From the NCBI GenBank assembly GCA_023374025.1, contig SIJG01000040.1:1209079-1273078 (forward strand): a stretch of DNA of 64,000 nucleotides. The letters are read 5' to 3'. Position numbers and translations under genes: made by a program. The notes under the pieces were generated by a model. It worked only from the letters and a program-made list of their open reading frames with translations, made no database searches and had not been told where the DNA came from. The stretch comes from Heterodera schachtii. Its lineage: Eukaryota > Nematoda > Chromadorea > Rhabditida > Heteroderidae. Positions 1 to 21,400 of the stretch are shown here, one piece after another; positions within the stretch are counted from its first letter, which is position 1, and each line of letters starts with the position of its first letter.

Positions 1-1
1 C

Positions 2-1682
2 CTTCCGACAGGGATAACACTCACCCGTCGTCAACATTTTGAGCGCATTGCTGCAGATGTTCATCGCCAGGGCGTCCCACAACAGCAACAACAACAACAA
101 ACAATACCAATGAACAATGAGGGAACGGGTCGGAATGCGGGTGTTCGACCATTTCTGGAGCAATTTTATCAGGATGGCACTACAACAATTGATTATTTCG
201 TCTTCGATTGGCAAATTGGATCATTCATCCCGTAAACGCTTTTATTAAGTACAAAGTTTTTTTTTTTTTTGCTTAGTGGACTAACCCTTAAAGTGCTTGA
301 GTTTGATTACGCGGAGAGAGTTCCTTTTCGAAATGGCACAACCGCGCCCGGCATAAATATTTTGCTGGAAAATGAACAGCATTTACGTGTTCATATTTGT
401 GCAAGAGAGGCAAGGGCTACCCTACTTTCAAACACTCTTCTGGTTGGAGGCACTTACCGGTTCATGCATTTGAATGTGAGACCAAAGCGAGATTTTGGAC
501 AATCTGTGAACTACAGCTTAGCTTTTACTTTTGGAAGTTCTGTTCACATGATTCAGGTTTTTTTTTCATTTTATCACTAAGGGACCTATAGTTTCATTGG
601 TTGTTCGAAGTGTGAGCGACCGGTCTTCTCAATTTGTTTGTCCAAAATCCCCTGTTCCCTCCCACCAGCAGCAAGGCGGGCAGATTTCGCATAATCAACA
701 AACAATGCAAGGAGGACCTACAATGCCGACACGTCAAGCTGAGCAACATCCACCAACACTATCACCACAGATAAACAACGTACAGCAGCAACAGCAAAGT
801 GTACCGAGTCCGCTGAACGAGCACCAACAGAGTGTACACCCATCTCGGGGTGAACATCCACAACCGCACCAACCTTTGCCAAACGTGGTGCAACCGCAAC
901 AGCAGCAACAGCCAAATCATCAGTTTTTGGCACTTGATCATGACAATGACGATCAGCTTTTGAACCAAATTTTTTTGGTAGTAAAATTTTTTGAAAATAA
1001 AACGTTAGACACGCGATTTACAGGATCTCACCACTTCCGCTGAAATGGAACCTGTCGCCTTGGACAACAACAACAACAACAACAACAACAATAATAATAA
1101 TAATATGGTTTTGCAATAATTTTAGGTTTGTCTATCTGACTAATATTCCATTTTGTTTTAGAACCCACAAACTTCTTCAACAGCATCTTCATCTCGCCGT
1201 CGAAACAATGCCAGTGCCGGACGTGGTCGAGGAAGAGGACGAGGAGGAGGAGGCAGGCGCAGAGCGGTGAGAAACGCATGAATGAATGTTTGATTGATTA
1301 AACTGATATAAAAATAAATTTTGTGAATTATTTGTACCATTTTTTTTAAAAGAATGTTCGTCAGCAGCACCAAAGCGAATCAATTCTGTCTTCTCAATCC
1401 CAAACGGTCCAAGTACTTTCTCCATCAGAGCTTCAACATGGTCAGGGTTTAACACGCGAACAATGCGATAGTATACTTCCCAATCTGGAAGTGAACGAGG
1501 CAATGGTCCGGAATGATGAGCGATGTGTTATTTGCCAAATGGGATTTGACTTAGGGTCATTGAACGCCACCGAACTCCCATGCAAACATCTTTATCATTT
1601 GTCATGCGCTAGAGATTGGCTTATGCACCAAAATCGTTGTGCCATTTGTATGCGCCGTTTTGTGCTTGACTCTGATGCTTAA
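2..1682 (+). CDS. OB-fold + Q-rich linker + RING-H2 protein, 5' end missing
   Basis: Six exons can be joined with one open frame: 2-231, 277-556, 582-977, 1024-1107, 1162-1266 and 1353-1682, giving about 474 residues plus a missing N-terminus. Introns are 20-90 bp with GT/AG borders. The second exon reads like an RPA-type OB fold (strand pattern GINILLENEQHLRVHI, then a YRF...NVRPKRDFG...LAFTF end). Exons 3-5 are rich in Q, N and P, then RGRGRGRGGGGRRR. The last exon carries a canonical RING-H2: CVIC-x-CKHLYHLSCARDWL-x-CAIC. RING-H2 proteins are usually E3 ubiquitin ligases; an OB-fold suggests single-stranded nucleic-acid or protein binding. It could be a Polinton gene or a flanking host gene: it lies outside the repeat block at 1780-2393. 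Family assignment of the RING is firm, of the OB fold moderate. Confidence 0.7.
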
Positions 1683-1779
1683 ATAAATTTATTTTATGCA
1701 AAAAATTTTTGAAGGAGTGCGCATTATTTAAAAAATTCTTTGATTGGACTTTTTTGCAAAATAGTTTTGTGTTATATAT

Positions 1780-2393
1780 GAAAAATAAGAGGAGAGCGAA
1801 TGGGAGCGCCGTAGCATAGTGGTTAACGCTTTTGATTTAATGCTTTGGGGTTCTAGCCCGCACGGCGCTCCCATAATTAGGTAGGGATTAACAATTATTA
1901 ATAATAATAATAACGCTTTATTAATTAACGCTTTATAAATTAACGCTTTATAAATAACTGCTTTAATATTAAATAAACAATATCATACCATACCATATCA
2001 TACCATACCATACCATACCATACCATACCATACCATGCCATACCATACCATAACATACCATGCAATACCATACCATACCATACCATAACATACCATGCAA
2101 TACCATACCATACCATACCATCCCATACCATGCCATACCATACCATACCATACTATACCATACCATACCATACCATGCCATAACATACCATGCAATACCA
2201 TACCATACCATGCCATGCCATACCATACCATAACATACCATGCAATACCATACCATACCATACCATACCATGCAATACCATACCATACCATGCCATACCA
2301 TACCATACCATACCATACCATACCATGCGATACCATACCATGCGATACCATACCATACCATACCATACCCCCCCCCCCCATTTTTTTGTTGCT
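1780..2393 (+). repeat. tRNA-like head plus (ACCAT)n block, left copy
   Basis: A 71-nt tRNA-like sequence is followed by AT-rich DNA with three AACGCTTTATAAAT-type repeats. Then come about 390 bp of (ATACC)n pentanucleotide array (1981-2371), a run of C and an ATTTTTTTGTTGC end. The same order of parts occurs inverted at 40518-41106. This is either a terminal inverted repeat of a 39-kb composite element or two independent copies of a tRNA-derived SINE-like repeat with a simple-repeat tail. Confidence 0.8.
1802..1872 (+). other. tRNA-like sequence (SINE-like head)
   Basis: The 71 nt have a perfect 7-bp acceptor-like stem (GGGAGCG with CGCTCCC), an A-box-like TAGCATAGTGG and a B-box-like GGTTCTAGCCC. 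No convincing anticodon stem is seen, so I call it tRNA-derived, not a working tRNA gene. Confidence 0.6.
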
Positions 2394-2470
2394 ACAAAAA
2401 ATTAAATTTATTGTCATTTTTTATCCTTTGCTTTACACATTGATAGAATTGTGTTTTTTAGGTATAAAAA

Positions 2471-5400
2471 ATGTCTAATTTTAATCAGAATGATTTTGCC
2501 ATCACTTCGGTGCACGAAATGCGCAACCGACCTCGGAATACAATTGGTGAAATAGCGGAAGTGCGCTTTGCTCCCCTTGAAGAAGTGGAACGACCCGACC
2601 GTGTGCTCGAGCGTCTTGTACAACGGTTGTTTGACAGAGTGCTTGATGGACGTCCAGCACCGATGTTAATTGGTCTTCAACTGCATCCACCTACCTTCGA
2701 GAACCCATTTACGGTTCCACTTCGTCCACCTGAGCAAAACAATCCGGCTGCAATTGCTGATCTGATTCAAAGACTCAATGATCAATCTGCGGCCGGAATT
2801 GATCTGACTGGCGGGACAACAGTCACAAAAGTGCTTGCAGTTTGGCCAATGCAATCGGACCAAACTGAATCAGGGAGAGCAGGTTAAATTTTTTGTTTTG
2901 TTTAATTCATATTTTTTTTGTTGTATAGGCGCATGCAGTCTTGATGAAGAGCACCGATTGGTGAACACTGTTCGCTCGTTGATCCGCATTAAGAATCCGA
3001 ATGATCGACTTTGTTTGGCCAGAGCTGTGTTGCTTGGTCTTCACGATTGGCGGTCACGATCACCAGACGGAGGCGGACCGACAGCATTCAAAAGTTACGC
3101 AAATCGCCAGCACACCCACGGGCCTGAGGCACGTAACTTATTGAGACGTGCCGCAATTCCCCGAAACAAACACATGTACACAATTGATGACGTCCAAAAA
3201 TTACAAAATTGGATTGATCAACGATACGGGCCAGGAGAAATTCGAATTGCGGTTTTTGAGAAGGAACGTGAGTACCGAATTGTGTTCAAGGCTGCATCAG
3301 GCGAGGCAGCCAAGTTCAACTTGTGTCTTTTGTTCGAAAATCAACACTTCAACTACATCGGTCGAATTGAGCAACTGTTTCGTGTGCAAGGATATTGTAT
3401 TGATTGTGAACGTCGTGTGACACGTTGGTACCACCCGCAGGAATGCAAAGTCGTCTGCCGTCTGTGTTTACGTTTCGGCGCTGGGTATCCATGTAAACAA
3501 CAACAACAACAATCCCGAGAAGATGGATCAACTGGCAATCGTCTTTGCCGTGATTGTCAATTCGTTTTTCCAAATGACGACTGCTTCGCCTATCATCTGA
3601 GCAATCGGGCACCTACAAGCATGTATAATCAGGGAGGACGCACTTTTCGCCCAATATGTGAATGGAGAAGAGCGTGCCGACAATGTGGAGCCATAACTTA
3701 TGCTAATTATCCGCATAAATGTCCAGCACAAATTGGCCAAACGGAATGGATGCGCTGTGCACGATGCTTTGGACCACATCAAAGTGGAGACCCTTGTTTT
3801 ATACAACCTCTCAAGGACGAACCTACGAGGAGGAGGAGGAGAGGAAGAGGACGACAACAACAACAACAAATAACGATGACGAAGATGATGATGATAATGG
3901 TAACGAGGAGGGAGACGACGGTCATGATGCTGATGATGATGAAGAAGGAGATGGAACAAATGGATCGGTCAGACTTTGCTTTTTCGACGCTGAAACATCC
4001 CAGGATTTACCACTTCAACTGCGTACCAAGGTTGTACAGAAGCATGTTCCGATGCTCATTATTGCCGAAATTATCTGCGAAGCGTGCATAAATGAAGGAA
4101 TTTCGGTTCACTCTGGTGCTGGACAATACGCAAATGGGTGTGTGTGTAGTCCTCCTACGGGACCAAGGGGACGTCGCTGGTGTTCTCCTCCGTTTCTGAA
4201 TGCACCTGGGGATGGCAGTGCTCTACCAACCAATGTCCACTACAACCCACGAAGACTGTTTTTCCATAGTTTTGACGACGCGACCAACAATGATCCGGTT
4301 GACGATTTTATCAACTTTCTCACCGGAAGTGGCCCACATGGTGTTCAAACAATTTGTTTATCACACAATGGCGGAAAATACGACATTCATTTAATACTGG
4401 AGGCACTTCACCGGCGCAATTTACCACCAAAGCGTATTTGCACAACCGGACTAAAAATTTTTTCGATGACTTTGAAAGGGAACCATCAACGACACGTGAT
4501 CTTTAAAGACTCGCTGAACTACTTCTTCTGTGAATTGGATGCACTGCCACGCACATTTGGATTGAACTCTGAAGTTGCAACAGCAAAACCTTTTTTTCCA
4601 TATCTGTTCATTCGGCGTGAAAATTTACATCAAAGATTGCATGGTTTACCGGGCAAAGAATTTTATCAGCCTGATCACATGAAAACATCAAAGAGAGATT
4701 CATTTATGCATTGGTGGGAGGCCGAGAATCGCTCTGCACGCTTCCAATTGCGTGAACAACTCATCCTGTACTGTATGAATGATGTGGCAATTCTGCGCGA
4801 AAGTGTACTTCAATTTCGCCAAATTATCGCTGAAAATACGAGAGGACTTGACCCGTTCAAAATCTCATCCACGGCAGCTGGTCTTGCCTTGGCCACTCTC
4901 CGCCGCTGCTTTCTTCCAATGAACAAGCTTGTTAATGCGCCAGAAGGTGGCTACCTAAGGGGGCGGCGAGCATCTGCTGAATCGGCACGATACATTCGTT
5001 ATTATGAAATGACACATCCGGGAGTACATGTTAGGTCTGCCCAATGGTCAATTGGTGAGGCTAACGTCGAAGACACTGGCTACCGCCTTGATGGATTAGT
5101 CACACGTGAACCCCCTCAACGAAACCTTGCCATTGAATACATGGGTTGCTTTTATCATGGTAAAAAAAAGGTCGCCCTTTTTAACTGAAAACAATGCTTC
5201 AAGGTTGCCCCAAGTGTTACGTTAACGACCGACAACAAAAATTGGCGGGTGGAAGGACAGCAGAAGACCTGTATGAACGAACCAAGAGGCGACTATTTGA
5301 ACTGCAAAATCAGCATGGCTTTGAGCTGGAAGTTGTCTGGGGATGTGAAGTGAAGCAACGTCTTCGTGCTGACCCAGAATTTCGCCGGGCGTACAATGAC

Positions 5401-7288
5401 TCATTCGTTCCAAGACCGCTTGATCCAAGAGAGGATGCGCTACGGGGTGGTCGCACCGAACCGTTTATTCTTCATTACACATGCAGTCCGGACGAAGAGA
5501 TAATTCTCATTGACATAGTAAAAAAAATGTTAAGAAAAAAATTTTTTTTTCATTAAAGGTGAGCTTGTATCCATATGTGATGAAGGCATTCCCGTTTCCT
5601 GTTGGTAACCCACGCGTTCTCACGCGTGAGACACTTCTATGCGCACCAACATCACCGCTTCCATGGTGTTCTGTTGACGCGAACTCATTCAAAGGGCTGT
5701 TGTTTGTGCGTGTTCTACCCCCAGATCCAGCTGTACACCCGCTAAAAGTTCCTTTGCTTCCCTACCGCACTACCGACGGACGCCTAACTTTTCCGCTTTG
5801 TGCACGCTGTGCTGACAACCGACAACAACGGGCATGCAAACACATTGATGCATCAAGAGCATGGGTTTCCGCGTAATTTTATGAAATTAATTCATGTAAA
5901 TTTACTTTTTTTCCGGTGCATAGATACACCCATGTTGAATTGAACAAAGCACTGGAGCTTGGCTATAAGGTTATTGATTTATTTGAGGTAAAGATAACGT
6001 AACGTTTATTGCACTTAAACTTCAAAAAATAAGGTATGGCACTATGAAGAATGGGATAACCAACTGTTTCGTGAATATATGAACACCTTTGTGGGTCTTA
6101 AAGTTGAAGCAAGCGGTTGGCCATCCGGTTGTGATTCCAATGAACAGCGCAGAACCTATGTAGACGAATTTAGGCGGGTTGAAGGCATTCAGTTGGACGC
6201 TAACAAAATTTCAAACAACCCTGGACTTCGAATGGTTGCGGTAAAAAAATCTACAGACTTATAGTTATTGAAGATAAAAAAAACAGAAAATTCTTGCAAA
6301 CTCTCTCTGGGGAAAACTTGCACAACGAGTCGGTGGAACGGAAGTGCGTTATACCCGAACTCCAGCTGAGTTTCATGCACTGCTTGAGAATCGCAACTTT
6401 GACATTATTGACTTTCATCATGTCTCTCCCCATATGGACCGAGTAGTAGTGAGGAAAAAGGCTGAATTTGCAAAAGCACCATCAACCAACTGCTTACCAA
6501 TTGCAATTTTTGTCACTTCATATGCTCGTCTACACCTTTATGACTATATGGAACAAGTGCTGCGTCTTGGTCATAAGCTCCTTTATTGCGGTGAGCCAAA
6601 AAAACAAAAAATTTTTACATTTACTGACCTATTATTCAAGATACTGATTCAATTTATTACGTGACAAGCAACGGAAAACAGCATGTGCCTGAAGGTGAAG
6701 CGCTGGGACAGATGAAGAGGGAACATTGTTCGAGGCGAATATACGAATTTGTGTCCGGTGGTCCAAAAAATTATGGCTTTCGCCATTGTGATCGCATAAA
6801 CAGAGAGGATGAGCGGGCTGAATTGAAAGTCCGAAGTTTTCGTCTCTCATATTCCGCTCAACAGCTGCTCAACTTCGAGTCCATGAAGCGCATTGTTTTG
6901 GAGCATTACAACATTGATGGACAAATGTCATCACATTTTTCTCTCATAATTCCCAAAATACACTAAAATTCTATTCCACAGTGATGATGTGCTGGACATG
7001 GAAGGTGTTCATGTTGCACCGGGAAGCAACGCGTCAATAAGAATCGAATTTCCACAAATTGGCCGTACTCCATGTTCGGATCTGTACACCTACGACGCTC
7101 ACAAGGACTACCAGCCTCATTATGTGAAGGGACGCATTCGGCCCAGCATGGAAACTGTACCATTCGGATTTCGTGAAGTACAACCGGTTCAAGAACAAGC
7201 TGAACAACAACAACAACAACAACAGAATGATTTTGATGACAACTTATTAATTTCTAACCTTCCCGGATGTTCAAATTGGAATCAATAA
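2471..7288 (+). CDS. Polinton protein-primed DNA polymerase B (nine exons)
   Basis: Exons: 2471-2882, 2929-5159, 5204-5517, 5559-5872, 5924-5987, 6034-6240, 6287-6590, 6641-6926, 6982-7288; every junction keeps the frame. Family B 3'-5' exonuclease motifs are visible: ExoI FFDAETS, ExoII SHNGGKYD, ExoIII YCMNDV. The polymerase motifs are intact: A (DIVSLYPYVMK), B (KILANSLWGKL) and C (YCDTDS). Protein-primed PolB enzymes replicate linear genomes from a terminal protein, so this is the element's own replicase. The first ~450 residues hold Cys-rich zinc-finger-like pairs. The one defect is inside exon 2: the frame changes by -1 in an acidic/Gly-Arg low-complexity linker near 3820-3950, between the N-terminal region and ExoI. 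This may be a microsatellite slip, a sequencing error, an unrecognised intron or a programmed shift. A CAA run encodes poly-Q near 3497 and at the C-terminus. Confidence 0.93.
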
Positions 7289-7340
7289 AAAAACTGACAT
7301 ATAATAGAAGAAACTTGCAAGAATTTGATATACAGAAAAA

Positions 7341-7907
7341 TTAGTAATTTACAATATCTAAGAACAATTGCAAGGCATTAGACAGATGTTCCTGCTTTTT
7401 GGATCCTGTAAAAATGATTTTTCCAGAATGATAGGCTAAACAGGTGACCAAAGCGTGATTGTCTACAACAATCTTACAACGCATAGCGGGAAAAATGGTG
7501 GGATCATATTGGATGTTACGAAATCTGTGTGGGTCCAGTGTTGGTATAAAATTCAACAGAGACAAACGATGGGGTAAAGTGAATGAACCAACTATGTTTG
7601 TCACACGTATCTCATGGAGTTCTAGCGGAGAGCCCAAAGCATGCTGCACCCTCCTTCTGATTTTTTGCGCCTCGCGTACCGCTCTGCTCGGACAAGGAAC
7701 ACCTGTTAACACCGCACGGGCTGATCGAAATAAAAGACACGCAAGAGTGCGTTGTTGAGGCAGACGCAGTCGTATGATGATTGCATGAAATCGCTGGGGA
7801 TCGTACTCCGAATTGAAGCCGTTTTGAGCAATTTTCAAAAACTCTGTGTTTGTGAAGGGCGCCCGCTGTAGTTGAAATGTCACTGTACAATTTTGAATAG
7901 TCAACAT
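7341..7907 (-). CDS. TATA-box-binding protein (TBP) core, Polinton-borne
   Basis: A single intact 188-aa ORF, almost exactly the length of the conserved TBP core, with both TBP repeats. Repeat 1 shows SEYDPQRFHAIIIRLR and a LLFRSARAVLTG block, matching the family's EYNPKRFAAVIMRIR...IFSSGKMVCTGAK. Repeat 2 shows VTNIVGSFTL, YDPTIFPAMRCKI and YHSGKIIFTGSKK. The N-terminal extension of cellular TBP is absent. TBP nucleates pre-initiation complexes on core promoters. Here it lies antisense to the polymerase, with convergent stops 53 bp apart, and is followed by the PAZ gene on the same strand. I see no intron. The divergence from the metazoan core suggests old capture or a specialised paralogue. 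It could direct RNA polymerase to the element's own promoters; that role is inference. Confidence 0.9.
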   Translation of the reverse strand: MLTIQNCTVTFQLQRAPFTNTEFLKIAQNGFNSEYDPQRFHAIIIRLRLPQQRTLACLLFRSARAVLTGVPCPSRAVREAQKIRRRVQHALGSPLELHEIRVTNIVGSFTLPHRLSLLNFIPTLDPHRFRNIQYDPTIFPAMRCKIVVDNHALVTCLAYHSGKIIFTGSKKQEHLSNALQLFLDIVNY

Positions 7908-7985
7908 TTATTTTTTTAAATCTGGCATTAAAAAACAAACAATATTTGAATTAAAAAACGTCCGTTCATCATCTTTTTCACTAAA

Positions 7986-8726
7986 TCATGGTTCTTTAAC
8001 AACAACAACACTCAGACACTCAAGCGGAAACAGAGAGCTATGATCACCACCGCCAAATTGAAGAACGCATGGCAGCTGGGGATAAACCAGCTTTATACCA
8101 TGTTTCACATAGTAGTAGACGCGCACCTTAAAGTGTATTGTGACACATAAATTGGTTAAATTTAAATTTAAATCAATGACAAACCGTAATGCCAAGATAA
8201 CCGCGCATAGCATATGCAGTTTGAGCAGGATGAATTGTCAGTTCGTTGCAATGGACGCGCATGTTTTTCCAGGCAGGGCGCAGATGATTGGTGCGTAAAT
8301 GAAGATTGGAACGCAACATTTCCGAAATTTCACGACGTTTGCTCAGCGTCTGCAGCAGAACGTGAAGCTCGTTCATTGAACATTTGTAGTGTTTGCAGAG
8401 AAAATCAATCAACGGCACACTCTTCTGCTTTTCATTGCAACTGCACTTGGTTTGTGGTTGCGGCTGTTTTGGCAACTCAATGTTGTCTAAATTTAAAAAA
8501 CTGTTTTTTAATGTCTAAAAATAATTAAATAAACCTTTCACTTGTTCCAGTTCCATTTGGTTATTTTGCAATTCCATCGCCCGCTCCTCCTCTTCCTCGA
8601 TGATTTTAAGCCAGCTCATTTGTCCTTCCTGAAAATTTATTTTTTTTTTACTTTTACTAATACAGAATTATTATTTACATTTTCTTAAAAAAACACCTGT
8701 GTTGCCTTAGCTTTCTTCTTCTTCAT
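7986..8726 (-). CDS. PAZ-domain protein without PIWI (Argonaute-derived)
   Basis: Four exons on the minus strand (8726-8697, 8628-8535, 8486-8185, 8126-7986) join into one open frame of 188 aa, from a short basic MKKKK start to a stop just after the domain. The N-terminal third is a charged helix followed by a Cys-containing linker. The next part begins PLIDFLCKHY, like the L1-to-PAZ entry of Argonautes. The final exon reads VYYYVKHGIKLVYPQLPCV, then FPLECLSVV, which matches the Argonaute PAZ end (VAEYF..KYGI.L.YP.LPC...PLEVC.IV). PAZ binds small-RNA 3' ends. No MID/PIWI follows: the next gene on that strand is the TBP. The first exon is short and its start is the least certain part; the segment around the third intron aligns less well. 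A decoy or RNAi-suppressor role is inference. Confidence 0.68.
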
Positions 8727-8918
8727 TTCCTGTTGTCATCTTTTGCTCCGGGTACGCATTGTGGAGCCAATCGGTCGCAAGAATCGCATCCATTTGTTTA
8801 ATAGTTAGGAGAATATTATTATTATTATTTCTGTAACACATAAACAGCTTAACTGTGTATATATAATATCTTTAAACATAAAAATATAAGATAAACCGTT
8901 TTGCAAAACCAAAAAAAA

Positions 8919-9611
8919 ATGGCAGACAATTTTCAAAAATTTGATGAAAAACACTTACAACTCAGACACCCGTTTACGCTAACAATCTCAGGGAGCACGG
9001 GGAGTGGAAAATCGGAATGGGTGTTGCGAATGCTGAGGAATGTAAATGCGCTAGTTTCGGAACCCATCTCGGAGATTTTCTATTGTTATGGGGAGTTGAA
9101 CCCAAATGTAATACAGCTTCAGAAAAGTGGACACATCGGCGGTTGTAGGGTTATTGTACATGCTGGAACACCAACCGAAGATCAGGTTAATCGGCGCGCA
9201 AAAGAGAGTGATGGAAAACTGCTGATGGTGCTGGATGATCTCATGGTTGGTATGGGGCAACAATTTCTTGACACTGTGTTCACCCGGGGGTCGCACAATT
9301 GGGGGGTCAGCGTCGTGTTGGTCACTCAACATTTGTTCGCGAAAGAACTACGGGTTGCGCGCAACAACTCCCACTATCTGGTGCTGATGCGTAACCCGGC
9401 GGGCGCGCTCCAAGTGCGGACGCTCGCCTCACAGCTATTTCCGACGAAAAGCAACTATTTCACGGAAGCATACCGGGATGCAACTGAAAAGCAATTTGGC
9501 TACCTACTGATTGACATGCACCCCGAGAGTCCAGAATTGCTGCGTCTAAAAACGAATATATATGGAGAGCAAGGGGATGGGCTTCCCCCAATGGTTTATG
9601 TTGCAAAATGA
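8919..9611 (+). CDS. Polinton DNA-packaging ATPase (A32/FtsK-HerA type)
   Basis: A 230-aa ATPase. Walker A is GSTGSGKS near residue 26 and Walker B is LLMVLDDLM near residue 105, followed by a sensor-like VVLVTQH. This is the standard layout of the genome-packaging ATPases of Polintons, virophages and adeno-like viruses, which pump DNA into preformed capsids. I chose the ATG at 8919 (MADNFQKF); the open frame extends six codons further upstream without a better start. Its stop overlaps the start of the next gene by 4 bp (ATGA), typical of the compact morphogenesis block downstream. Confidence 0.92.
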   Translation: MADNFQKFDEKHLQLRHPFTLTISGSTGSGKSEWVLRMLRNVNALVSEPISEIFYCYGELNPNVIQLQKSGHIGGCRVIVHAGTPTEDQVNRRAKESDGKLLMVLDDLMVGMGQQFLDTVFTRGSHNWGVSVVLVTQHLFAKELRVARNNSHYLVLMRNPAGALQVRTLASQLFPTKSNYFTEAYRDATEKQFGYLLIDMHPESPELLRLKTNIYGEQGDGLPPMVYVAK

Positions 9612-10033
9612 AACATATCGAAAGAAGAAGAAGACTAACCGATAAACATAATATCAATGTTAGCCCGCTGATGTTGAAAAATGCTGACTTCTTGCGCCAC
9701 TTTCGCTCTAAATGTCGCTCAAAAAGTAGCCAGCGCAAAATGATTGAGAACGCTTTGGATGAACAGTTGCTCTGCTTTGTGGAGATGGGTTTTAATGTGT
9801 TGAAGGGCCGTGTTCCGTTAGGAAAGCTACAAATTCAACGGTTGGGTGCATTGAAGCATCAGTTGAGGCGCTTAGCACGCGCACGTTGCGCAAAAACAGC
9901 GCGCAGAGTACTGTTACTGAACCGTCAAAACCAACACCACCAAACCGGTGCTGGCTTTCCGGTGATGGCCAGTATGCTGACGAGCATTCTCTTGCCATTG
10001 TTAATGGACAAATTGCTGCCAAAAAGGGATTGA
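9608..10033 (+). CDS. small basic Polinton protein with hydrophobic tail
   Basis: A 141-aa protein very rich in Arg and Lys through the first 110 residues (RHFRSKCRSKSSQRK; RRLARARCAKTARR). It ends with a Gly-rich turn and a hydrophobic segment (GFPVMASMLTSILLPLL) before a short basic tail. Polintons commonly carry a short basic protein with a glycine/hydrophobic C-terminus near the ATPase, and a DNA-condensing core-protein role (compare adenovirus core proteins) is plausible. Overlaps the ATPase stop by 4 bp. No domain is recognised. Confidence 0.75.
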   Translation: MKHIERRRRLTDKHNINVSPLMLKNADFLRHFRSKCRSKSSQRKMIENALDEQLLCFVEMGFNVLKGRVPLGKLQIQRLGALKHQLRRLARARCAKTARRVLLLNRQNQHHQTGAGFPVMASMLTSILLPLLMDKLLPKRD

Positions 10034-10106
10034 TAAATAAATAAATATATAAAAGCAAAACAACAGGAGCACTCATTTAATTAAACATTGAGGAGAGCGC
10101 AAAAAA

Positions 10107-11108
10107 ATGCGTCACGCAATGCGAATGTTTCTCGTCCCGGAGGACGTCTTTCAGTCGGTATTTGTTCAACCCCAAGCAGCAGCAGCAGCAGCAGCAGACG
10201 GTGCAGACGGCACACCAATTGGGCTTTTGCGCTCGCGCATCCAACAAATTGAGCGCAACAGGGAGCTGAACGAAGAGCAGAAGGCCGCCCAATACCATCA
10301 GGAATTCAAACGGCTCAACAAACTGGTGCGCGAGCAGGAGGAGCAGCCGATCAATGTTCGACTTCAAAACGAACCGGATAGAAAAAAATCTCCAACGCCG
10401 CCGCCGCCGCCGACGATCGATCATTCAACGCCAAAAACATTGAAGAAAAAAACTGTACCACCACTGAAGAGGCAAAGACAACACTACACACAGAAGGCAG
10501 GGGCATCATCAAATCGCAGGCCTGCCCAAAAACAACAAAGAAAAGCAGCAGCAGCAGCAGCAAACAGCAGTGGAAATGGAGAAACTGAAAAAGAAGAGGG
10601 TGAAGGAGATGATGGGGAACAGTGGGACGATGCACAATCATCATCGTCCGCAGCGTCAACGGGTAGTGCAGCAAAAAGAGTGCTCAGAGCAAGGGTTGGG
10701 GGAGGAGGAGGAGGAGGAGAAACGTCTGAACAAACCAAACACAACTACCAGATGACCAAAAATGCACTGATTACCCATATTCGAAAAAAGGGGAACAGTC
10801 TGGGAGTCAGTGATCAAGGAAAGATTTTGCGCGCAGATGGGTCCGAGTTTAAAACGAGCAGTGTGGAGGCAATTGTCATCCATTTGTTGAACAGGGACAA
10901 GCGAAGCGAGTTCAAGGGGCAGCCTGTAGGCTATAAGGAATTTGCTGAAAAGGCTAGAGAGGATCCGTTGTTGAAAAAGTATTTGTTCCCGCAACAGCCC
11001 CTACAATTTGGCAAAGGCCTAACTGATTTTAAGCATGGAAAAGGACATAAAAAGAGGTGCGAAGGAGGAGGACAAAGTGCCTTCAGGTTCAAACCGACAC
11101 TATGGTAG
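10107..11108 (+). CDS. Polinton hypothetical protein with low-complexity middle
   Basis: A 333-aa protein. The N-terminus (MRHAMRMFLVPEDVF) and the following coiled stretch to about residue 95 resemble a conserved Polinton protein of unknown function that I recall starting with a R-M-x-LVPE motif. The middle (residues ~100-215) is low complexity: P runs, Q, A runs, acidic EEGEGDDGE and a G8 run. The C-terminal ~110 residues are ordered-looking (THIRKKGNSLGVSDQGKILR, then a DPLLKKYLFPQQPLQFGKG segment) and may be a small DNA-binding or scaffold domain. It overlaps the integrase start by 7 bp. Function unknown. Confidence 0.8.
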   Translation: MRHAMRMFLVPEDVFQSVFVQPQAAAAAAADGADGTPIGLLRSRIQQIERNRELNEEQKAAQYHQEFKRLNKLVREQEEQPINVRLQNEPDRKKSPTPPPPPTIDHSTPKTLKKKTVPPLKRQRQHYTQKAGASSNRRPAQKQQRKAAAAAANSSGNGETEKEEGEGDDGEQWDDAQSSSSAASTGSAAKRVLRARVGGGGGGGETSEQTKHNYQMTKNALITHIRKKGNSLGVSDQGKILRADGSEFKTSSVEAIVIHLLNRDKRSEFKGQPVGYKEFAEKAREDPLLKKYLFPQQPLQFGKGLTDFKHGKGHKKRCEGGGQSAFRFKPTLW

Positions 11109-12253
11109 TAGACCGGAAGAAAGAACAGCTGTTGGACCAACTGTACAAAGATGTTAACTCATCGGTCAGCTTTACCAGCGTTGAACCGCTTTTGCGTGAG
11201 GCGAAAAAAGTGAACAATCAAATGAGTAGAAAGGATGTAGTGGACTATTTGGCCACCCAACGCACATACACCATTCATAGACAAGCGAAGCGGCGCTACA
11301 AACAACTACCAACACTCGCTTCGGGCCTGCATACCGAGTGGCAAGCAGACCTGTCTGTCTTTGACAAATTGTCGCGAGAGAATCACGGTTACAAATACCT
11401 TCTTGTATGCATCGATACACTGAGCAGACAGCTCTTTGTTGAGCCGGCAAAAAGCAAAAAGGGCGCCGACATGGTTGCTGCTTTTGAACGCTTGTTCAAA
11501 CGCTCCAAATACATACCTTGGACACTGTTGACCGACCAAGGGCTCGAATTTAAGGCAAAAGATGTTCAGGAATATTTCAAAAGTAAGAACGTAAAAAACT
11601 TTTTTATGTACACCTCACCGCGAATTCACGCAGGCATGGCCGAACGGGCCAACCGAACCATCAAAGAACGTCTTTATCGCTATTTCACGGAACGGGGTAC
11701 CCAAAAATGGGTTGATGTGATACAGCAAATTGTGCATGGAATAAACCATTCGTACAACTCCAGCATAAAAATGCGCCCAGTTGATGTGAATTTTGAGAAT
11801 GCAGAAAAGCTCAGGAAAAAACTTAAGCAGAACGCTATCGGTGGGACAGCGGAAGAAGCAGCAAAACGGAAACAACCACAACCACGTTTTAAGGTGGGTG
11901 ACCGTGTGCGCATTGAGAAGTACAAACACGTGTTCCAAAAGGGCTACACTGGCCGCTTCACCAACGAAGTGTTCACTGTTGCCGAAGTGCACACTGACCG
12001 CTTTCCCGTCACGTACCGAATACGTGACGACGACGGTTCCCTGATCAAGGGTCGTTTCTATAACAACGATCTTTGTCGTGTGCTAGAGCGAAAAAACGAT
12101 GGTGATGCTGATGATGTCCTATATGACATTGAAAAGGTCGTCCAAAAAAAGAAAAAGCAAGGTGTTGAATACGTTTTGGTGAAATGGAAAGGGTACAGTC
12201 AGCGATACAACAGCTGGATTCCTGCAAGCTCCATGACATGGAAAAATATATAA
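11102..12253 (+). CDS. Polinton retroviral-type integrase with C-terminal chromodomain
   Basis: The rve-type DDE core is complete: first Asp in WQADLSVFD, second in LLTDQGLEF, Glu in GMAERANRTIKE. It is preceded by an N-terminal helical segment without a clear HHCC finger. After the core come an SH3-like Polinton-typical segment (FKVGDRVRI...) and a chromodomain at the C-terminus (YDIEKVVQKKKK, then VKWKGYSQRYNSWIPASSM). Chromodomains on Polinton integrases are thought to steer insertion to methylated chromatin. The ATG at 11102 overlaps the upstream stop; the frame is open from 11057, so an earlier start at 11057 is possible. No inactivating changes seen. Unusually for Polintons, the integrase lies mid-element, not near an end. 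Confidence 0.95.
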   Translation: MVVDRKKEQLLDQLYKDVNSSVSFTSVEPLLREAKKVNNQMSRKDVVDYLATQRTYTIHRQAKRRYKQLPTLASGLHTEWQADLSVFDKLSRENHGYKYLLVCIDTLSRQLFVEPAKSKKGADMVAAFERLFKRSKYIPWTLLTDQGLEFKAKDVQEYFKSKNVKNFFMYTSPRIHAGMAERANRTIKERLYRYFTERGTQKWVDVIQQIVHGINHSYNSSIKMRPVDVNFENAEKLRKKLKQNAIGGTAEEAAKRKQPQPRFKVGDRVRIEKYKHVFQKGYTGRFTNEVFTVAEVHTDRFPVTYRIRDDDGSLIKGRFYNNDLCRVLERKNDGDADDVLYDIEKVVQKKKKQGVEYVLVKWKGYSQRYNSWIPASSMTWKNI

Positions 12254-12275
12254 AGGGGTGTTTTTTAAAAGAAAA

Positions 12276-13511
12276 ATGAGAATGCCTTCATCAAACTCAT
12301 TCTATGTGATCGTTCCCTCCAACACAAATGTTGAAGGAAATCGCACAAACTCTTTTCGAGTTCGACTGCCAAGAAAACTTCAATTTAACTCGGAATGGGA
12401 CGTAGGCTTAGGTGTGATCATATACCCCCATTCATGGCCCTCACTCGGCACATCAGAGGATCAATTTGTTCAAATTGAATGGAAGATTGGAGAGAATGTT
12501 CAGATACCAATTCCATCGTCTAACGTGACAAACCCCGTTGAGCTTTGGAAAAGTCTTTACAAACTGCTTGAAGAAGGCAACAAACCGTTAGCAATTAAAG
12601 TGGAAGGCGTACAGAAAAAATTCACTGAAGCGGCGAATACAGCACGTCAATTGGGCAGAGCAGAGTATATCAAAAAACAACAACAACAACAAAGAGACAA
12701 AAGAAATGTTAATGATGACGAAGACGAAGAACAACTGTTAAACGCCCTTTTAGCTGGGGTTGACACGTTGCTTGATCTTTACGGAGCAACCAGTGGTGGT
12801 CTCCTTGAGAGAGAAAAACGTGCAGCAACAAGCAAGGTCCCACTGAGGAATTGGGATGACACTGAAGAGGAATACCAGAAAAAACTTGATAAATATTTTT
12901 CGCGCCTACGTGGCAGTAATTTAGAGCGCTTAGAGGGACTAATAACAGAAAAGTTGAATGCAGAAATTGCATTGATGGATGACGAAAAAAGGAAAATTCT
13001 CGATCAAACCAAAGAATTAGGCATGACAGCATGGATAAAAATTTTCCAATCAGCATACTCTGCATGTTTCCTGCATTTTGACAGTACAACGAACAGATTT
13101 TCGTTGAAACTGGACGATCGTTATGTACAAAAAATAAAAATTTCCGACCAATTGGCCTACATTTTGGGTTTTAACTCAACCGATTTCACTGAAAAAGAAA
13201 CGGTTGCAAAATTTATGCCTGACATGAGTGGAGGAGTTGCTTCTTTTCATGTTTATGCGCCTGATCTAATTGAACCAATGATGATCGGTGACGTGATTGC
13301 CCCCGTTTTGCGCATCGTTACGATTCGGGGAAAACCTGACGAAATTATTGAAGAGCAGTTCCTGTCCGCGCAATACCATCGTGTACTAGTGAAAGAAATA
13401 AGTGAAATTTTCATCGAAATCAGAACATCCGGTGGTAACTTAATGCCATTTCAATACGGTACATGTACATTAACGCTACACTTTAGAAAGAGTTCCTACT
13501 TTAAAAAATGA
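12276..13511 (+). CDS. Polinton minor capsid (penton-like, single jelly-roll) protein
   Basis: A 411-aa protein. The N-terminal ~100 residues (FYVIVPSNTNVEG...; WDVGLGVIIYPHSW) and the C-terminal ~140 (ILGFNSTDFTE; DVIAPVLRIVTIRG; GTCTLTLHFRKSS) match the Polinton penton protein pattern I know. Between them, roughly residues 110-265, sits a highly charged helical insertion with a poly-Q tract (CAA repeats near 12675) and an acidic DDEDEEQLL stretch. Pentons form the five-fold vertices of the capsid. The ATG at 12276 fits best; the frame is open six codons further. The stop overlaps the protease start by 4 bp, so the two are probably co-expressed. Confidence 0.88.
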   Translation: MRMPSSNSFYVIVPSNTNVEGNRTNSFRVRLPRKLQFNSEWDVGLGVIIYPHSWPSLGTSEDQFVQIEWKIGENVQIPIPSSNVTNPVELWKSLYKLLEEGNKPLAIKVEGVQKKFTEAANTARQLGRAEYIKKQQQQQRDKRNVNDDEDEEQLLNALLAGVDTLLDLYGATSGGLLEREKRAATSKVPLRNWDDTEEEYQKKLDKYFSRLRGSNLERLEGLITEKLNAEIALMDDEKRKILDQTKELGMTAWIKIFQSAYSACFLHFDSTTNRFSLKLDDRYVQKIKISDQLAYILGFNSTDFTEKETVAKFMPDMSGGVASFHVYAPDLIEPMMIGDVIAPVLRIVTIRGKPDEIIEEQFLSAQYHRVLVKEISEIFIEIRTSGGNLMPFQYGTCTLTLHFRKSSYFKK

Positions 13512-13981
13512 ACAGTGTTCAAATAAATAAAATTCTTTCTCGAAACCCAGTCACGCGTTCGACCTTTTTAGGGTGTTTTCCATCAGATCAAATTCCAGCA
13601 GGAGCAGCTACACCAGTTCCTTACTCAATGGTGATTAATGTTGACCCGAGCGGTTCACCTGGCTCACATTGGGTTGCCGTGTATTGCGAGCAGCAAAACC
13701 GGGTGGAATACTACGATTCCACAGGAATTTGGCCACCATTAAGCCCTTTCATCCAAAAATTTTTAAAGAGTTTTGCTCACATTCAGTTTCATCAACTCCC
13801 ACTCCAAGCACCATACTCACACTCGTGTGGAAAGCATGCAATTTTCTTTATATTTGGACGGTGTACGGGGATGCACTTTGAAGCAATTTTGCAACTGCTA
13901 AAACGCGCAAAAATATCGCCAGATCTTTTTGTAAATAAATTTTTGCAAAAAAATGTGTTCAAAACAAATATAAATAACTAG
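13508..13981 (+). CDS. Polinton adenain-type cysteine protease
   Basis: A 157-aa protein with the adenovirus-protease/Ulp1-like catalytic order: His in GSHWVAVY, Asp in EYYDSTG, Gln before APYSHS, and Cys in HSCGKHAIFF. Length is close to the usual 150-200 aa of Polinton proteases. The enzyme matures capsid proteins during virion assembly, and the pVI-like protein just downstream is the obvious substrate. All catalytic residues are present. Confidence 0.93.
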   Translation: MNSVQINKILSRNPVTRSTFLGCFPSDQIPAGAATPVPYSMVINVDPSGSPGSHWVAVYCEQQNRVEYYDSTGIWPPLSPFIQKFLKSFAHIQFHQLPLQAPYSHSCGKHAIFFIFGRCTGMHFEAILQLLKRAKISPDLFVNKFLQKNVFKTNINN

Positions 13982-14021
13982 AAAACTCTATTTAAAAAGC
14001 GCAAAAAAAAAAGAAAGAAAA

Positions 14022-14576
14022 ATGCACGTTGATTTTGATCCTTTTAAAGTTGAATGGTCAGCATTGACGCAAATTTCTCCAGAAGTAGTCGTACAATACG
14101 GTGGTTATAATGTGTTCAGAGGGGTTCCTTACCAGCGCGGTAGTGGTATCGGATCTGTTTTTAGGAGTCTGCTGCGTTACCTAATGCCAATCGGGAAGGA
14201 AATAGGGACAGCCATCGGGCGCCAGGGACTTGAATCGGGAAATCGAGTTCTATCCAATGTATTAGAGGGTAGGGACCTCAAAGAGTCCCTGGTTAGTGAG
14301 GGAAAAACGGGGCTTAAAAATTTGCTAGAGAAAGCAGCCAACAACATAAATGCCCAAAAAGGTCAAGGGTTCGACTTTAAACGATACACAAAGAGAAATG
14401 ATGCACAAGAAGGTGGTGCAATAGGTAAAGCAAAAAAAGGTATAAATAAACTACAATCGAGGTTGGGACCACACGATTTCCTACCAGCAAACACCCCAGC
14501 AGGTCGGAAGAAAAAACACACTACTAAAAAGAAATCGGTCAAACGCCTTCGTACCGATATACTTGGAACCTATTAA
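14022..14576 (+). CDS. pVI-like virion-associated protein
   Basis: A 184-aa basic protein. A short N-terminal region (to ~residue 38) ends in a Gly-rich stretch (YQRGSGIG). An amphipathic helix follows (FRSLLRYLMPIGKEIGTAIG), then a long helical segment and a very basic tail (AGRKKKHTTKKKSVKRL). Position between protease and major capsid gene, size and the helix-plus-basic-tail layout match the Polinton/adenovirus pVI-like protein, which lines the inner capsid and disrupts membranes on entry. Gly-Gly-type sites near residues 27 and 40 could be protease sites. Assignment rests on layout rather than strict similarity. Confidence 0.7.
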   Translation: MHVDFDPFKVEWSALTQISPEVVVQYGGYNVFRGVPYQRGSGIGSVFRSLLRYLMPIGKEIGTAIGRQGLESGNRVLSNVLEGRDLKESLVSEGKTGLKNLLEKAANNINAQKGQGFDFKRYTKRNDAQEGGAIGKAKKGINKLQSRLGPHDFLPANTPAGRKKKHTTKKKSVKRLRTDILGTY

Positions 14577-14603
14577 TAAGCAACTCCCCGGAGTAGTAAC
14601 ATC

Positions 14604-15929
14604 ATGAGTTGTTCACAAAAAATTAGCGAAAGTAGTCCTCTTGCTACAAATAGTGCGCTGAACATTTTTTCAGTACCTCCGACAAATGTGTCGGTTGTGC
14701 GCTCCTATTTCCGTGAAGTTCTCCCCCTAGTGACAATAACACAAGAATCTCCATATCTTTTTCGCCTTTACAGCGACAATCTTTGGACCGATCTTTCCCG
14801 GATTTATCTCTTTCTTGACCTTTCAATAGAAAAACCGGATGTGGACGGTAACTGGGTGTCAATCACAGCTACCGATGCTCAAGTCGGTACCATTCAGGGA
14901 ATTGGTCAAACCTTTGTTCAACAACTAAAAGTTTCAGTTGGAAACACTGAAATTTACGACAGCGGAAATTTGTATCCATATAAGGTTTACATTACGAACA
15001 CGCTTTCGTTTCCAATGAACGTCAAAAAAAGCTTCCTAGCTTCAACTGGTCACTATGCGACACGCACACACGACAGCGTCGGTGATGAGGGCTTTAAAGC
15101 TCGGTGCAAAATTTTTGAGGGTGGAAAGCGAGCCCAATTTCTTTCACGCCTGGACTTTGACCTGGGAAACCAAGAACTTTATTTGTTGAACAATTTGGAT
15201 CTCTTATTTACAATTTACAAAGCTCGTGACTCTTTCATCATGCAGACATTGAAAGCAAACGACACTACCAGATACCGCGTTAGAGTCCATGACGTAAAAC
15301 TGTATGCAAAAATGATTGATGTTCAGTCATCTTTGAATTTAAGTATCTACAAAACGCTTGAAAAACAACCAGCCACATATGCAGTGCGAAAAACTGAAAT
15401 CAAATCATGCTTTATAAGTGAAGGTAGGTTTGAAATTGACTACAATGTGTTCAGTGCAACAATTCCTCGACGTATGACAATCGCACTCGTCGCAAACGGG
15501 GCATTTAACGGAAATTATGCTCTCTCTCCATTTAATTTTAAACCGTTTGACATTCGAGACGTTGCCGTGTACGCTGGCGGCATGATTTACCCAATTGTTC
15601 CATACAAGCTTGACTTTGCCAAAGATATTTACGTCCGTCCTTTTGTTGACATGTATGAGGCACTTGGCATGGCTAATTCAGAACGTTCTTTCGACATCAC
15701 AAAAGAGCAATTCAAATCTGGCTGGACCTTTTTCGTAATTCCACTCACATCGACGCTTGACGATAGCACAGGGTATGAACTCTTACGAAGCGGGACAACC
15801 AGCATTCGCGCAACATTTAATAGTGCAATTCCTGAGGGGGGAGTTGAAATGATTGTGTTGGGTGAATTTGACCAAATGATAATGATAGACTACAACCGTC
15901 ACATTGTTTCCGATTCCAAGCTTAGCTAA
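14604..15929 (+). CDS. Polinton major capsid protein (double jelly-roll)
   Basis: A 441-aa intact ORF with the expected size and position for the Polinton major capsid protein. Typical features are the early VPPTNVSVVRSYFREVLPL entry, the YLFRLYSDNLWTDLSRIYLF strand-loop, the IQGIGQTFVQQLKVSVG strand in the first jelly-roll, and the C-terminal EMIVLGEFDQMIMIDYNR block in the second. In the family these trimers form the pseudo-hexagonal shell of an icosahedral virion. No stop or frameshift. With penton, protease, ATPase and pVI-like genes open, the whole morphogenesis module reads as competent. Confidence 0.92.
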   Translation: MSCSQKISESSPLATNSALNIFSVPPTNVSVVRSYFREVLPLVTITQESPYLFRLYSDNLWTDLSRIYLFLDLSIEKPDVDGNWVSITATDAQVGTIQGIGQTFVQQLKVSVGNTEIYDSGNLYPYKVYITNTLSFPMNVKKSFLASTGHYATRTHDSVGDEGFKARCKIFEGGKRAQFLSRLDFDLGNQELYLLNNLDLLFTIYKARDSFIMQTLKANDTTRYRVRVHDVKLYAKMIDVQSSLNLSIYKTLEKQPATYAVRKTEIKSCFISEGRFEIDYNVFSATIPRRMTIALVANGAFNGNYALSPFNFKPFDIRDVAVYAGGMIYPIVPYKLDFAKDIYVRPFVDMYEALGMANSERSFDITKEQFKSGWTFFVIPLTSTLDDSTGYELLRSGTTSIRATFNSAIPEGGVEMIVLGEFDQMIMIDYNRHIVSDSKLS

Positions 15930-15955
15930 CCTTAACTGTATAAATAAGATGCATA

Positions 15956-16270
15956 ATGCAAAAAAATGTCACTATAAAAATGGCCTTTTTAAACAGTACA
16001 GCATACGCAAGTTTACAGCCAGAGATACAAGTACTAACATTTGAAAACAAAAGCGTTCATCCTAACTTCCTCATGCAACTTCTATTGCTTGCCCACTATC
16101 TCATTGCTTTTCCCGTTTTCATTTTATGCTGGTATTCTTTGATAAATTTTCTTAAGAGAAGAGGACATATTTCTCAGCGTGATGCCAGTGAGATGATGGA
16201 TGATTTGCGAAATTATCAGTTACCAAGAAATTCTCCAATTATTTTTCCAAGTTTATCAATAAAGAAATGA
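15956..16270 (+). CDS. small membrane protein, Polinton right end
   Basis: A 104-aa ORF beginning 27 bp after the major capsid stop. One strong membrane segment is visible at about residues 42-64 (LLLLAHYLIAFPVFILCWYSL), followed by a basic K-R-R-G-H stop-transfer and a short tail. No homologue is recognised. Two ATGs (15956 and 15983) could start it. It may be a virion or membrane-interaction protein; it is far too short to be the gB-like fusogen reported in some nematode Mavericks. Confidence 0.55.
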   Translation: MQKNVTIKMAFLNSTAYASLQPEIQVLTFENKSVHPNFLMQLLLLAHYLIAFPVFILCWYSLINFLKRRGHISQRDASEMMDDLRNYQLPRNSPIIFPSLSIKK

Positions 16271-16370
16271 CACAATACACTTTTTTTTTTTCACTTGATC
16301 CTCCTTTCAGCCTTGGTGAAGATCAAAACTAAATTTAAGGGGTGTTTTTTTTCTAGTTGAAAAATTTGGG

Positions 16371-16598
16371 TTACGTGACGAACGCGTATGGACCAAGCTT
16401 TTCCAACAACATTAATTGGATTGTTATGAGGAGGGTTGACGATCCACCGCTCGGATAGGTCCAACTGCAAATCTCGGTGTGCTCATTGCGAAAAATTGTC
16501 AGGGTGCAATCCTGTCTCGTGGTGAATTCACGAAGAAAAAACAAAATGGCAATCACATCGAGACCATTTTGGAGTTTGTGTCTCATCATCTTCAACAA
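16371..16598 (-). CDS. hypothetical small ORF
   Basis: A 75-aa ORF of unknown function with no recognised domain, placed between the Polinton structural genes and the RPA-like gene. It might instead be the 3' part of a decayed gene. Only length and position support it. Confidence 0.25.
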   Translation of the reverse strand: MLKMMRHKLQNGLDVIAILFFLREFTTRQDCTLTIFRNEHTEICSWTYPSGGSSTLLITIQLMLLEKLGPYAFVT

Positions 16599-16699
16599 TA
16601 AAATGCATTTTTAACGGATTTCAAAACCAAAGGACATGTTAAATCCTTTTTTTGAAGCGCACAACAAAATGAATCCGTTTCTCTCTCTCTCTCTCTCTC

Positions 16700-17408
16700 T
16701 CAATTTTTCTTGGCCTTTTTGGTAGCAATCCCATCAACATCACCAGCATCATCATCCTTTTCTTTTGGCACATCACTGTCATTTTTTCCGGGGCACTTCT
16801 TGAACAAATTGACAATCCAATCAAATCCGGTGTAAGTCTGACTGTTCGCCTAGACAGTGAGTTTGTCAAATATGTAGTAAATAGCAAAAAAAAAAAACCT
16901 TAATGTTGACTTTTGCAATCAGCTTCACAGCAATCAAATCGTCCAAATGTTTCGCAAGACTCTCCGGCTCCTTCTCCTTGGCGAGCAATTCGGCAGCTTT
17001 CATTCCCAAAAACTCTTCGGCAACACTTGAAAACATGGTGACACGTTGCGCAATGTCTGCTTGTTCAACATCTTGCAGCAGAAGACGAACAAACACCGTG
17101 TGGATTGGAGCAATCGCTTTTTGGCCGCAAGCCTCACACATGTTGTCATCGGACAATTTTCGGCGGCAAATGAGCCCTTTGGAACGGAATGGGCATGCCT
17201 AAAGCAAAAAATTAATAATTTAATTAATTAACTTAATTTGGACTTTGTAAACACGGTACTGCATATTTGTCACTTTCCCCAAAACATAAAAAACGCCGGC
17301 CGAATTGAAGTTGACCACATCGCTGATGTTTTTCGGCTCAACGGAATCCAACTCTTCTTGCTGGCGTGTTCCCTGCTCCGGGAGTTGGAAGCGTTTAAGA
17401 GAATTCAT
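16700..17408 (-). CDS. RPA1 DBD-C-like OB-fold/zinc-ribbon protein
   Basis: Three exons (17408-17244, 17198-16899, 16849-16700) join to an intact 204-aa frame. Introns are 45 and 49 bp. The zinc ribbon is ACPFRSKGLICRR followed by MCEACGQK, then an OB fold (APIHTVFVRLLLQDVEQ; FSSVAEEFLGMKAAEL; IAKVNIKV), the pattern of the C-terminal DNA-binding domain of the large RPA subunit. The C-terminus is an acidic-then-basic tail ending TKKAKKN, possibly a nuclear localisation signal. RPA1 normally has ~600 aa and three or four OB folds; here only DBD-C is present. It could be a small host paralogue or a single-stranded-DNA-binding gene carried by the Polinton, tail-to-tail with its structural genes. 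The stop lies in a CT microsatellite (16681-16701). Confidence 0.68.
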
Positions 17409-17409
17409 T

Positions 17410-18014
17410 GGAGGAGGATTGGAAAAAAATCGAATGTGGATGGAATTTTTTTTAATGGACGAGTGATTTTTATGTAGAAAAACTGTGATTAAATAGCAAA
17501 ATGAGGGGCGGGACAATGAAAGTAAAAGCCAAAAAGGCGGAGTCAACTTCTTATCAAAGCAAAAACAAAAATCAATGGGTATTACCAACAAGAAAAGGGG
17601 CGGAGTCTTTTTACTTTCAATGATGGCGTCATTTTTTTACAATTTAATGAAGCAAAAAATGGCCAATTGGGTAGTACAATAATTTGGCATGGGTTCGAGT
17701 CCAACCGGTTGCAAAGGTTTTTTGCTAATTTATTTAAAATTTTGGATACGATACTTGCAATAGGCTTGGGTTTATTGCTTGTTTGTGTACAGTCCTTACA
17801 ATAAGTTTGGCCATGGGGGGGGGGCATAAATAAAATTATCGATTGATAAATTTAAAAAATTAAATTAAAATCGATTTCATTGACAGAGAAAACATAGAAT
17901 GTACTCTCTCTCTCCCGTGGAGACCATCCAATAGGTTTAGGTTTGTGGAAGGGGATATCAAAGAAAAAAGTAGACACTCAAATTATCGATAGAAAATCAA
18001 TCGATAATTTGATT
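17410..18014. other. gene-free spacer
   Basis: AT-rich DNA between the RPA-like gene and the F-box fragment. It contains a G run near 17815-17825 and a short CT-rich stretch at 17905. I see no gene. Confidence 0.5.
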
Positions 18015-18590
18015 GGGAATATTATCTACTGTTGTCCACCGCTTCGCTTTGTCAATTTGAAGTTTGGCGGTCTGTTCCCCGAATTTCCATGCGATGACGG
18101 TGCCATGGCATCGGATGGACAAGCGGTGGCAAAATGGCTGTTCACTCCCCATCCAGACAATGTGCCAAAAATGTTCAGAAGCGCATATTTCAGAGAGCAA
18201 CATGAGAATTGGCCGCTAAAAATTTAAGCCTTCAAAGCGGTGTTTTCTTTTATCTTTTCGTATTTCCTATTCAATTTTTCCGTGTTTTAGGCATTTGCCA
18301 ATGCTTCGTCTCCCGCCAATTTCATCCTTTCCATTTGGTCTCCGTCACTTTTTCGTAACTCCGTTGTGCGCTTTGATCTGACAAATGAAATGACTCGGGA
18401 ACAATTGGCATTGAAAACAATTGACAATAGCTGGCATATTTTGTTCGTCCGTTGTCCAATTGTGCGAGACCAAAGCAAATGGACAAAATAGGAAAAAGAA
18501 GCGATTGATTTGGGAATTTATGATCAGCGGAATCAAATTGACATTAGAATTTATCAAGAGGACAAAATCTGGATGGGTCAGTGAACGATT
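18015..18590 (+). pseudogene. F-box-family protein, C-terminal fragment
   Basis: Two exon-like blocks separated by an intron near 18231-18291 encode pieces such as FGGLFPEFPCDDGAMASDGQ, WLFTPHPDNVPKMF and ASSPANFI, then TREQLALKTIDNSW and VRCPIVRDQSKWTK. I recall these strings as the C-terminal half of a large F-box-like paralogous family of cyst nematodes. A premature TAG follows KWTK (about 18489-18491) before an otherwise continuing EKEAID...YDQRNQIDIRI block, and no N-terminus precedes it. I therefore call it a pseudogene fragment. The family identification is from memory. Confidence 0.6.
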
Positions 18591-18640
18591 ATTGAAAATC
18601 TAATTTATAATTTTTCCGATTTTTAGGCTTCTCGACGCAA

Positions 18641-21211: not shown

Positions 21212-21400
21212 GCCAACGCAATTTTAAGGAAATTTTCAGCAATTCTTGAAAGTTTTTCTTCAAATCGTTGTAAAACAAATTCGTTATAAATGTTTAAAAT
21301 CCATCCGTTGATTGTTTCCATTTTTTGGAAATTGATCAAATTTGGACGCGAAATTTCCCTTACATCATTGTTCCAACGCTTGGAAATTCCCATTTTTCAG

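Follow-up and report, generated by a model that had tools for sequence, protein, structure and literature searches.

What would a virus-like transposon of a plant-parasitic nematode do with a PAZ domain that lacks the rest of an Argonaute? The question is raised by a gene on the minus strand at 8726-7986 of a 64,000-nucleotide stretch of Heterodera schachtii DNA, here called the window (GenBank assembly GCA_023374025.1, contig SIJG01000040.1, positions 1,209,079 to 1,273,078 of the forward strand), which an earlier note had read as a PAZ-only protein carried by a Polinton and as a possible decoy in RNA interference (RNAi). The PAZ gene occurs more broadly than that note thought, in several Polinton lineages and in BEL/Pao elements. 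We put at roughly 0.55 the probability that the captured PAZ works as an RNA-silencing antagonist of these nematode elements.

The gene is read as four minus-strand exons which when spliced give a stop-free frame of 188 residues ending directly after the PAZ domain, and its introns of 68, 48 and 58 bases have GT..AG borders in all three cases, at exactly the junctions that had been predicted (8696/8629, 8534/8487 and 8184/8127). Exon 3 (8185..8486, minus strand) encodes the N-terminal two thirds of the domain, as indicated by Pfam, phmmer and the spliced frame, and exon 4 (7986..8126, minus strand) encodes its C-terminal strands and the stop codon, with a GT..AG border, the Pfam PAZ match and the frame in agreement; an H. 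trifolii protein of 97% identity (P0001) agrees with the way in which the PAZ exons are joined. Exon 2 (8535..8628, minus strand), also with GT..AG borders, is acidic and predicted to be helical, with a helix at residues 27-60 in the model of P0001. The start is uncertain. Exon 1 as the earlier note placed it (8697..8726, minus strand) has a GT donor at 8696 and an in-frame ATG that is kept in a sister copy (L010) too. Three relatives (P0001, P0010 and P0053) share a conserved MDxIxATDW segment at their start, and comparison with them reveals a similar reading in the window (MDAILATDW..., 8707..8793, minus strand), which is terminated by a stop at 8707 and which the simplest splice would leave out of frame with exon 2. 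L010 has the same N-terminal offset, with its ATG in frame with exon 2 where the short start sits, and the short start may therefore be native in the window lineage, or another splice may join MDxIxATDW to exon 2.

The identity of the domain is supported by several comparisons. The Pfam PAZ hidden Markov model (PF02170) matches residues 122-181 of the window protein at E=1.8e-4, though the score of 21.9 bits lies below the curated cut-off of 28.8, and over residues 63-184 phmmer with the single sequence finds the PAZ domain of fly Ago1 (1r4k), with E=2.4e-5. Taken singly, 26 of 30 relatives match Pfam PAZ at E<=0.01 (the best at 8.9e-9), with P0036 reaching 29 bits, and a profile built from the 30 relatives matches human Ago2 at E=2.5e-9. 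This match, together with further structure matches at about 25% identity, leads us to reject a chance resemblance, and with likeness to Argonaute PAZ extending over 117 residues the fold that the earlier note had proposed is indeed found. Protein databases hold relatives in Meloidogyne and Globodera, several of them labelled 'PAZ domain-containing', and automatic annotation (the UniRef names) says no more of such genes than this. Broader protein searches returned 30 and 35 proteins, of which many come from environmental assemblies, and the rows that name an organism are all from Heterodera, Meloidogyne or Globodera. Five single-protein scans of IMG/VR gave no true relative, four being empty and one returning a single match (L045), which was dropped because its open reading frames are phage-like.

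The window gene stands alone, as had been claimed: the frame ends after PAZ, and an exon-wise search of the genome for PIWI gave no match within 6 kb, by which we also reject the idea that it is part of a split Argonaute. It is by this absence of nearby PIWI matches that transcripts running on into MID/PIWI exons, a refuting condition of the earlier note, were checked for. How well the pocket for RNA 3' ends is preserved was judged from a sequence alignment of 30 rows (gaps excluded, Ago2 numbering, coordinates not used), and the check suggested by the earlier note comes out divided, with some positions kept and others, discussed below, variable. The position of H316 is His in 28/28 rows and that of R315 is R or K in 29/29, and residues of this type we take to hold the 3' end of the small RNA; an R315V/H316A mutant of Ago2 is present in the PDB. 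The L339 position is aromatic in 27/27 rows, and 26 of 27 rows have H or Y at that of H271.

That the gene is carried by a virus-like transposon is borne out by its neighbours. In the window a viral-type DNA polymerase B (PolB) and an rve integrase, both over their Pfam cut-offs, identify a Polinton/Maverick. The polymerase lies in several open reading frame pieces at 2468..7288 on the plus strand (DNA_pol_B_2, E=4.2e-13 for piece 3719-5185; some pieces assigned by tblastn against sister elements and the rest by position), and the integrase, with a chromodomain, at 11051..12253 on the plus strand (rve 5.5e-11, Chromo 2.6e-7). Immediately downstream of PAZ on the same strand is a TBP-like gene (7341..7907, minus strand; PF00352, E=3.2e-24), and diverging from PAZ is an A32-like packaging ATPase (8919..9611, plus strand; Pox_A32, E=1.7e-4, at 21.6 bits just under the cut-off of 22.8). 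This ATPase and an Ulp1/adenovirus-type cysteine protease (13505..13981, plus strand; Peptidase_C48, E=0.021, 15.1 of 20.7 bits) score below their cut-offs; both are conserved in sister elements. A probable minor capsid protein (12237..13511, plus strand) and a probable major capsid protein (14580..15929, plus strand; conserved in L008, L030, L032-L034 and L038) have no Pfam match and are presumed from their position in the usual Polinton gene order. No candidate pair of terminal inverted repeats of at least 25 bases was found in 1-20000, and none of note between 1-3000 and 15901-22000. Elsewhere in the window there are inverted copies of 1.47 kb at 19746-21211 and 24916-26379 (99.9% identical), and an inverted match of 613 bases at 87% between 1765-2373 and 40530-41127.

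The setting of the PAZ gene differs among elements. In the lineage of the window (lineage 1, with L010-L016, L020, L021 and L023) it lies between the TBP-like gene and the ATPase. A second Polinton type (L042, matched in part by L030, L032-L034 and L038) has a probable capsid gene, protease, membrane protein and PAZ followed by PolB on the opposite strand, and a third (L043) has protease, membrane protein, PAZ and integrase. By reading of the letters, three H. trifolii gene models (P0025, P0032 and P0033) run protease-like sequence and PAZ pieces together, as adjacent genes in a Polinton would lead one to expect. In BEL/Pao elements, of a Cer7-like kind with phlebovirus-like envelope, the domain is part of a longer frame: L040 has in one frame the end of an A17 protease, an rve integrase (E=1.3e-4, below cut-off), then Phlebovirus G2 (E=5.6e-62) and, after a hydrophobic segment, PAZ (E=2.9e-4, below cut-off), and that of L039 has G1, G2 and PAZ (E=1.2e-5, below cut-off). 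The BEL/Pao PAZ lies between two hydrophobic segments, and from this arrangement it would probably face the cytosol.

A search of the genome (178.5 Mb in 356 contigs, with match counts being lower bounds) gave 63 matches by the PAZ family model, 120 by the window protein and 87 by the BEL/Pao PAZ, which were merged into 122 clusters comprising all of the 63 and 120 rows and the three of the 87 BEL/Pao-PAZ rows that fall at apparently new places. Neighbourhoods were counted with 31 PIWI rows and with one row per locus for A17, PolB, ATPase and TBP, second pieces having been removed by hand (115 ATPase rows becoming 104 ATPase loci); TBP-like matches number 35 genome-wide. PIWI lies within 6 kb of seven of the 122 clusters, PolB within 12 kb of 39, and a further 31 have an ATPase within 15 kb or a TBP-like gene within 12 kb; ten lie no more than 9 kb from a BEL/Pao A17 protease of the same strand, among them C73:181335, which was counted there by distance and may be of Polinton type. 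The remaining 35 are without any of these neighbours, and some of them will be host Argonautes, the PIWI search being exon-wise. The vicinity of PolB (12 kb) amounts to only 0.9% of the genome, yet 39 of the 115 non-PIWI clusters lie there, far above expectation, with the proviso that the binomial comparison treats as independent clusters that, being copies, are not. Seen from the ATPase, PAZ matches lie within 15 kb of 61 of the 104 loci. Two other arrangements were observed: a near-perfect large inverted duplication with PAZ exons (L044, the C7 inverted pair, 34-2512 / 7423-9901), a palindrome in which the list of open reading frames showed no Polinton gene and which is left unassigned, and, on C13, C95 and C195, PolB pairs separated by about 6 kb whose members are also on opposite strands.

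The PAZ family is under purifying selection. Among the seven copies of lineage 2 (21 pairs) the ratio of non-synonymous to synonymous substitution (dN/dS) is 0.03-0.25 at dS 0.02-0.60, and between the window and L010 it is 0.14 at dS 0.53 (dN 0.046 and dS 0.445 for the PAZ exons alone); in the remaining five window-lineage pairs dS is saturated. In lineage 3 four of 28 pairs are saturated, L018-L019 gives 0.59 on only three differences, and the others fall at 0.14-0.39, many at high dS. These comparisons leave out L035 (which is broken), L007, L008 and seven of the ten lineage-1 copies, which could not be delimited automatically. Decay of the frame in all sister copies, which the earlier note had named as fatal to its proposal, is not what is found, since sister copies keep the frame; 29 of the 120 genome matches of the window protein are stop-free over at least 110 residues, in a table read by eye. 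As a separate observation, the ATPase of the window (8919-9608) differs from that of L010 by a dS of 0.12, far below those of PAZ (0.45) and TBP (0.58), which hints at recombination between elements.

In a tree of short rows, with several long branches and a small Argonaute sample, the mobile PAZs lie on one side of a branch and seven Argonaute rows on the other (support 85/94, not starred), and two BEL rows fall among the Polinton rows, with an approximately unbiased (AU) p=0.028 for a Polinton-only clade. The simplest reading would be one old capture followed by exchange between element types, in either direction.

In the model that we favor, mobile elements living in plant-parasitic nematodes captured a PAZ domain of host Argonaute type; several Polinton lineages would have retained it as a gene of its own, and BEL/Pao elements as a module that follows the envelope protein. 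Without MID or PIWI, a small PAZ in the cytosol could still hold the 3' ends of small RNAs, or Dicer products with 2-nucleotide overhangs, and the bound RNAs would be withheld from the host Argonautes that silence the element, or the PAZ would compete with those Argonautes. An antagonist of this sort is supported by the PAZ fold, by purifying selection, by the conserved His of the pocket and by the occurrence in two kinds of element that are unrelated; that the protein binds small RNAs, sequesters them or inhibits host Argonautes, to the gain of the element, is inferred from the fold, the conserved pocket residue and the two element kinds. What stands of the decoy proposal is a real Argonaute-type PAZ, on its own, among Polinton genes; the counter-defence is its probable part. 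A bolder version, which we hold tentatively and at somewhat less than even odds, is that of a PAZ-only anti-silencing module traded among unrelated elements, diversified in several Polinton lineages before the split of Heterodera and Meloidogyne, passed between Polintons and envelope-bearing BEL/Pao elements, and each time letting its carrier hold the 3' ends of the small interfering RNAs directed against it.

Several observations weigh against an antagonist. In the pocket alignment 28 of 29 rows have Y or H at the Y311 position, that of Y279 varies (F/K/H/I/V/R/M) and that of F294 is mixed, and the Argonaute insert around F294 is partly missing, so that affinity for 3' ends may be changed. 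No PAZ match lies within 15 kb at 43 of the 104 ATPase loci, and PAZ is therefore not in every element; only ten PAZ clusters adjoin one of the 135 A17 matches in the genome. Finally, six Heterodera proteins (P0056-P0059, P0061 and P0063) give matches to the PAZ profile as well as to TBP, a combination that would suit a different role.

The best surviving of the alternatives, although an unlikely one, is that PAZ handles 3' ends in the life cycle of the element itself, for example single strands displaced while the element replicates by protein priming, or ends that the integrase has processed. The PAZ fold binds ends, and the 1si2 complex has, by its title, a duplex with deoxynucleotide overhangs, so that DNA ends are possible ligands; moreover, Polintons and BEL/Pao elements both use rve-type integrases, as in the window and, below cut-off, in L040. 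However, the many ATPase loci and A17 matches that have no PAZ nearby argue that it is not generally needed for such a step. We regard as slightly less probable again a regulatory pair or fusion of PAZ with its TBP-like neighbor, tuning element transcription with small RNAs as input. The two are same-strand neighbors throughout the window lineage, and in the three of the six double-matching proteins that were examined by sequence PAZ runs into TBP. Yet these three depart from PAZ at an LPC motif, so that its last strands are missing, Pfam PAZ matches none of the six, and the joined proteins may be mispredictions between close genes or a real splice form; furthermore, the other lineages place PAZ between a membrane protein and PolB or integrase, and BEL/Pao elements place it behind the envelope. 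Improbable to a further degree is that PAZ steers host silencing against rival elements, as a superinfection control, rather than blocking it: related elements are numerous in this one genome, as the ATPase loci indicate, and different kinds of element carry PAZ, but we know of no route to target recognition without MID or PIWI. That the gene is a decaying, functionless relic of a captured Argonaute, as the doubtful N terminus of the window copy and the broken copies (stops in some genome matches; L035) might suggest, is the least credible: dN/dS values far less than 1, at dS reaching 0.6, refute it for the family, many copies as well as proteins from Heterodera, Meloidogyne and Globodera have unbroken frames, and it could apply to single copies only.

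The antagonist reading bears on how nematode transposons meet their hosts' defences. Nematodes outside clade V have lost Piwi-interacting RNAs and use other small-RNA routes against transposons (PMC4323106, PMC9203780). With a PAZ gene on likely targets of small-RNA defence, a single small protein is enough to put counter-defence by a nematode transposon to a direct test, and two carriers as different as a DNA virus-like transposon and a retroelement would offer a natural experiment on surviving RNAi. We found no description of a PAZ gene in a Polinton, BEL/Pao or other retroelement in the titles and abstract openings of part of the literature matches, a coverage that lies outside the specialised nematode-Polinton papers. 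The gene is an accessory gene of mobile elements, and probably a silencing antagonist of a type not met in the literature searched.

Several known systems come close to this gene. Like the accessory genes of Polinton/Maverick elements, it sits among those for PolB, ATPase, integrase and protease. L040 has the A17 protease, integrase and Phlebovirus G2 of BEL/Pao elements with phlebovirus-like envelopes, but differs in that its open frame continues past the envelope into a PAZ domain. With Argonaute PAZ (AGO clade, PF02170) the mobile domain has in common the fold, along 117 residues, and, in the pocket for 3' ends, the R/K-H pair, although it is without MID or PIWI, its hairpin-helix module is shorter and the identity is only about 25%. 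Its likeness to viral suppressors of RNA silencing is in the proposed effect only, that of withholding small RNAs or blocking Argonaute; unlike duplex-binding suppressors such as p19, the mobile PAZ is host-derived and would bind ends. In the bolder version given above it would be a class of RNAi antagonist made out of part of the very effector that the defence uses.
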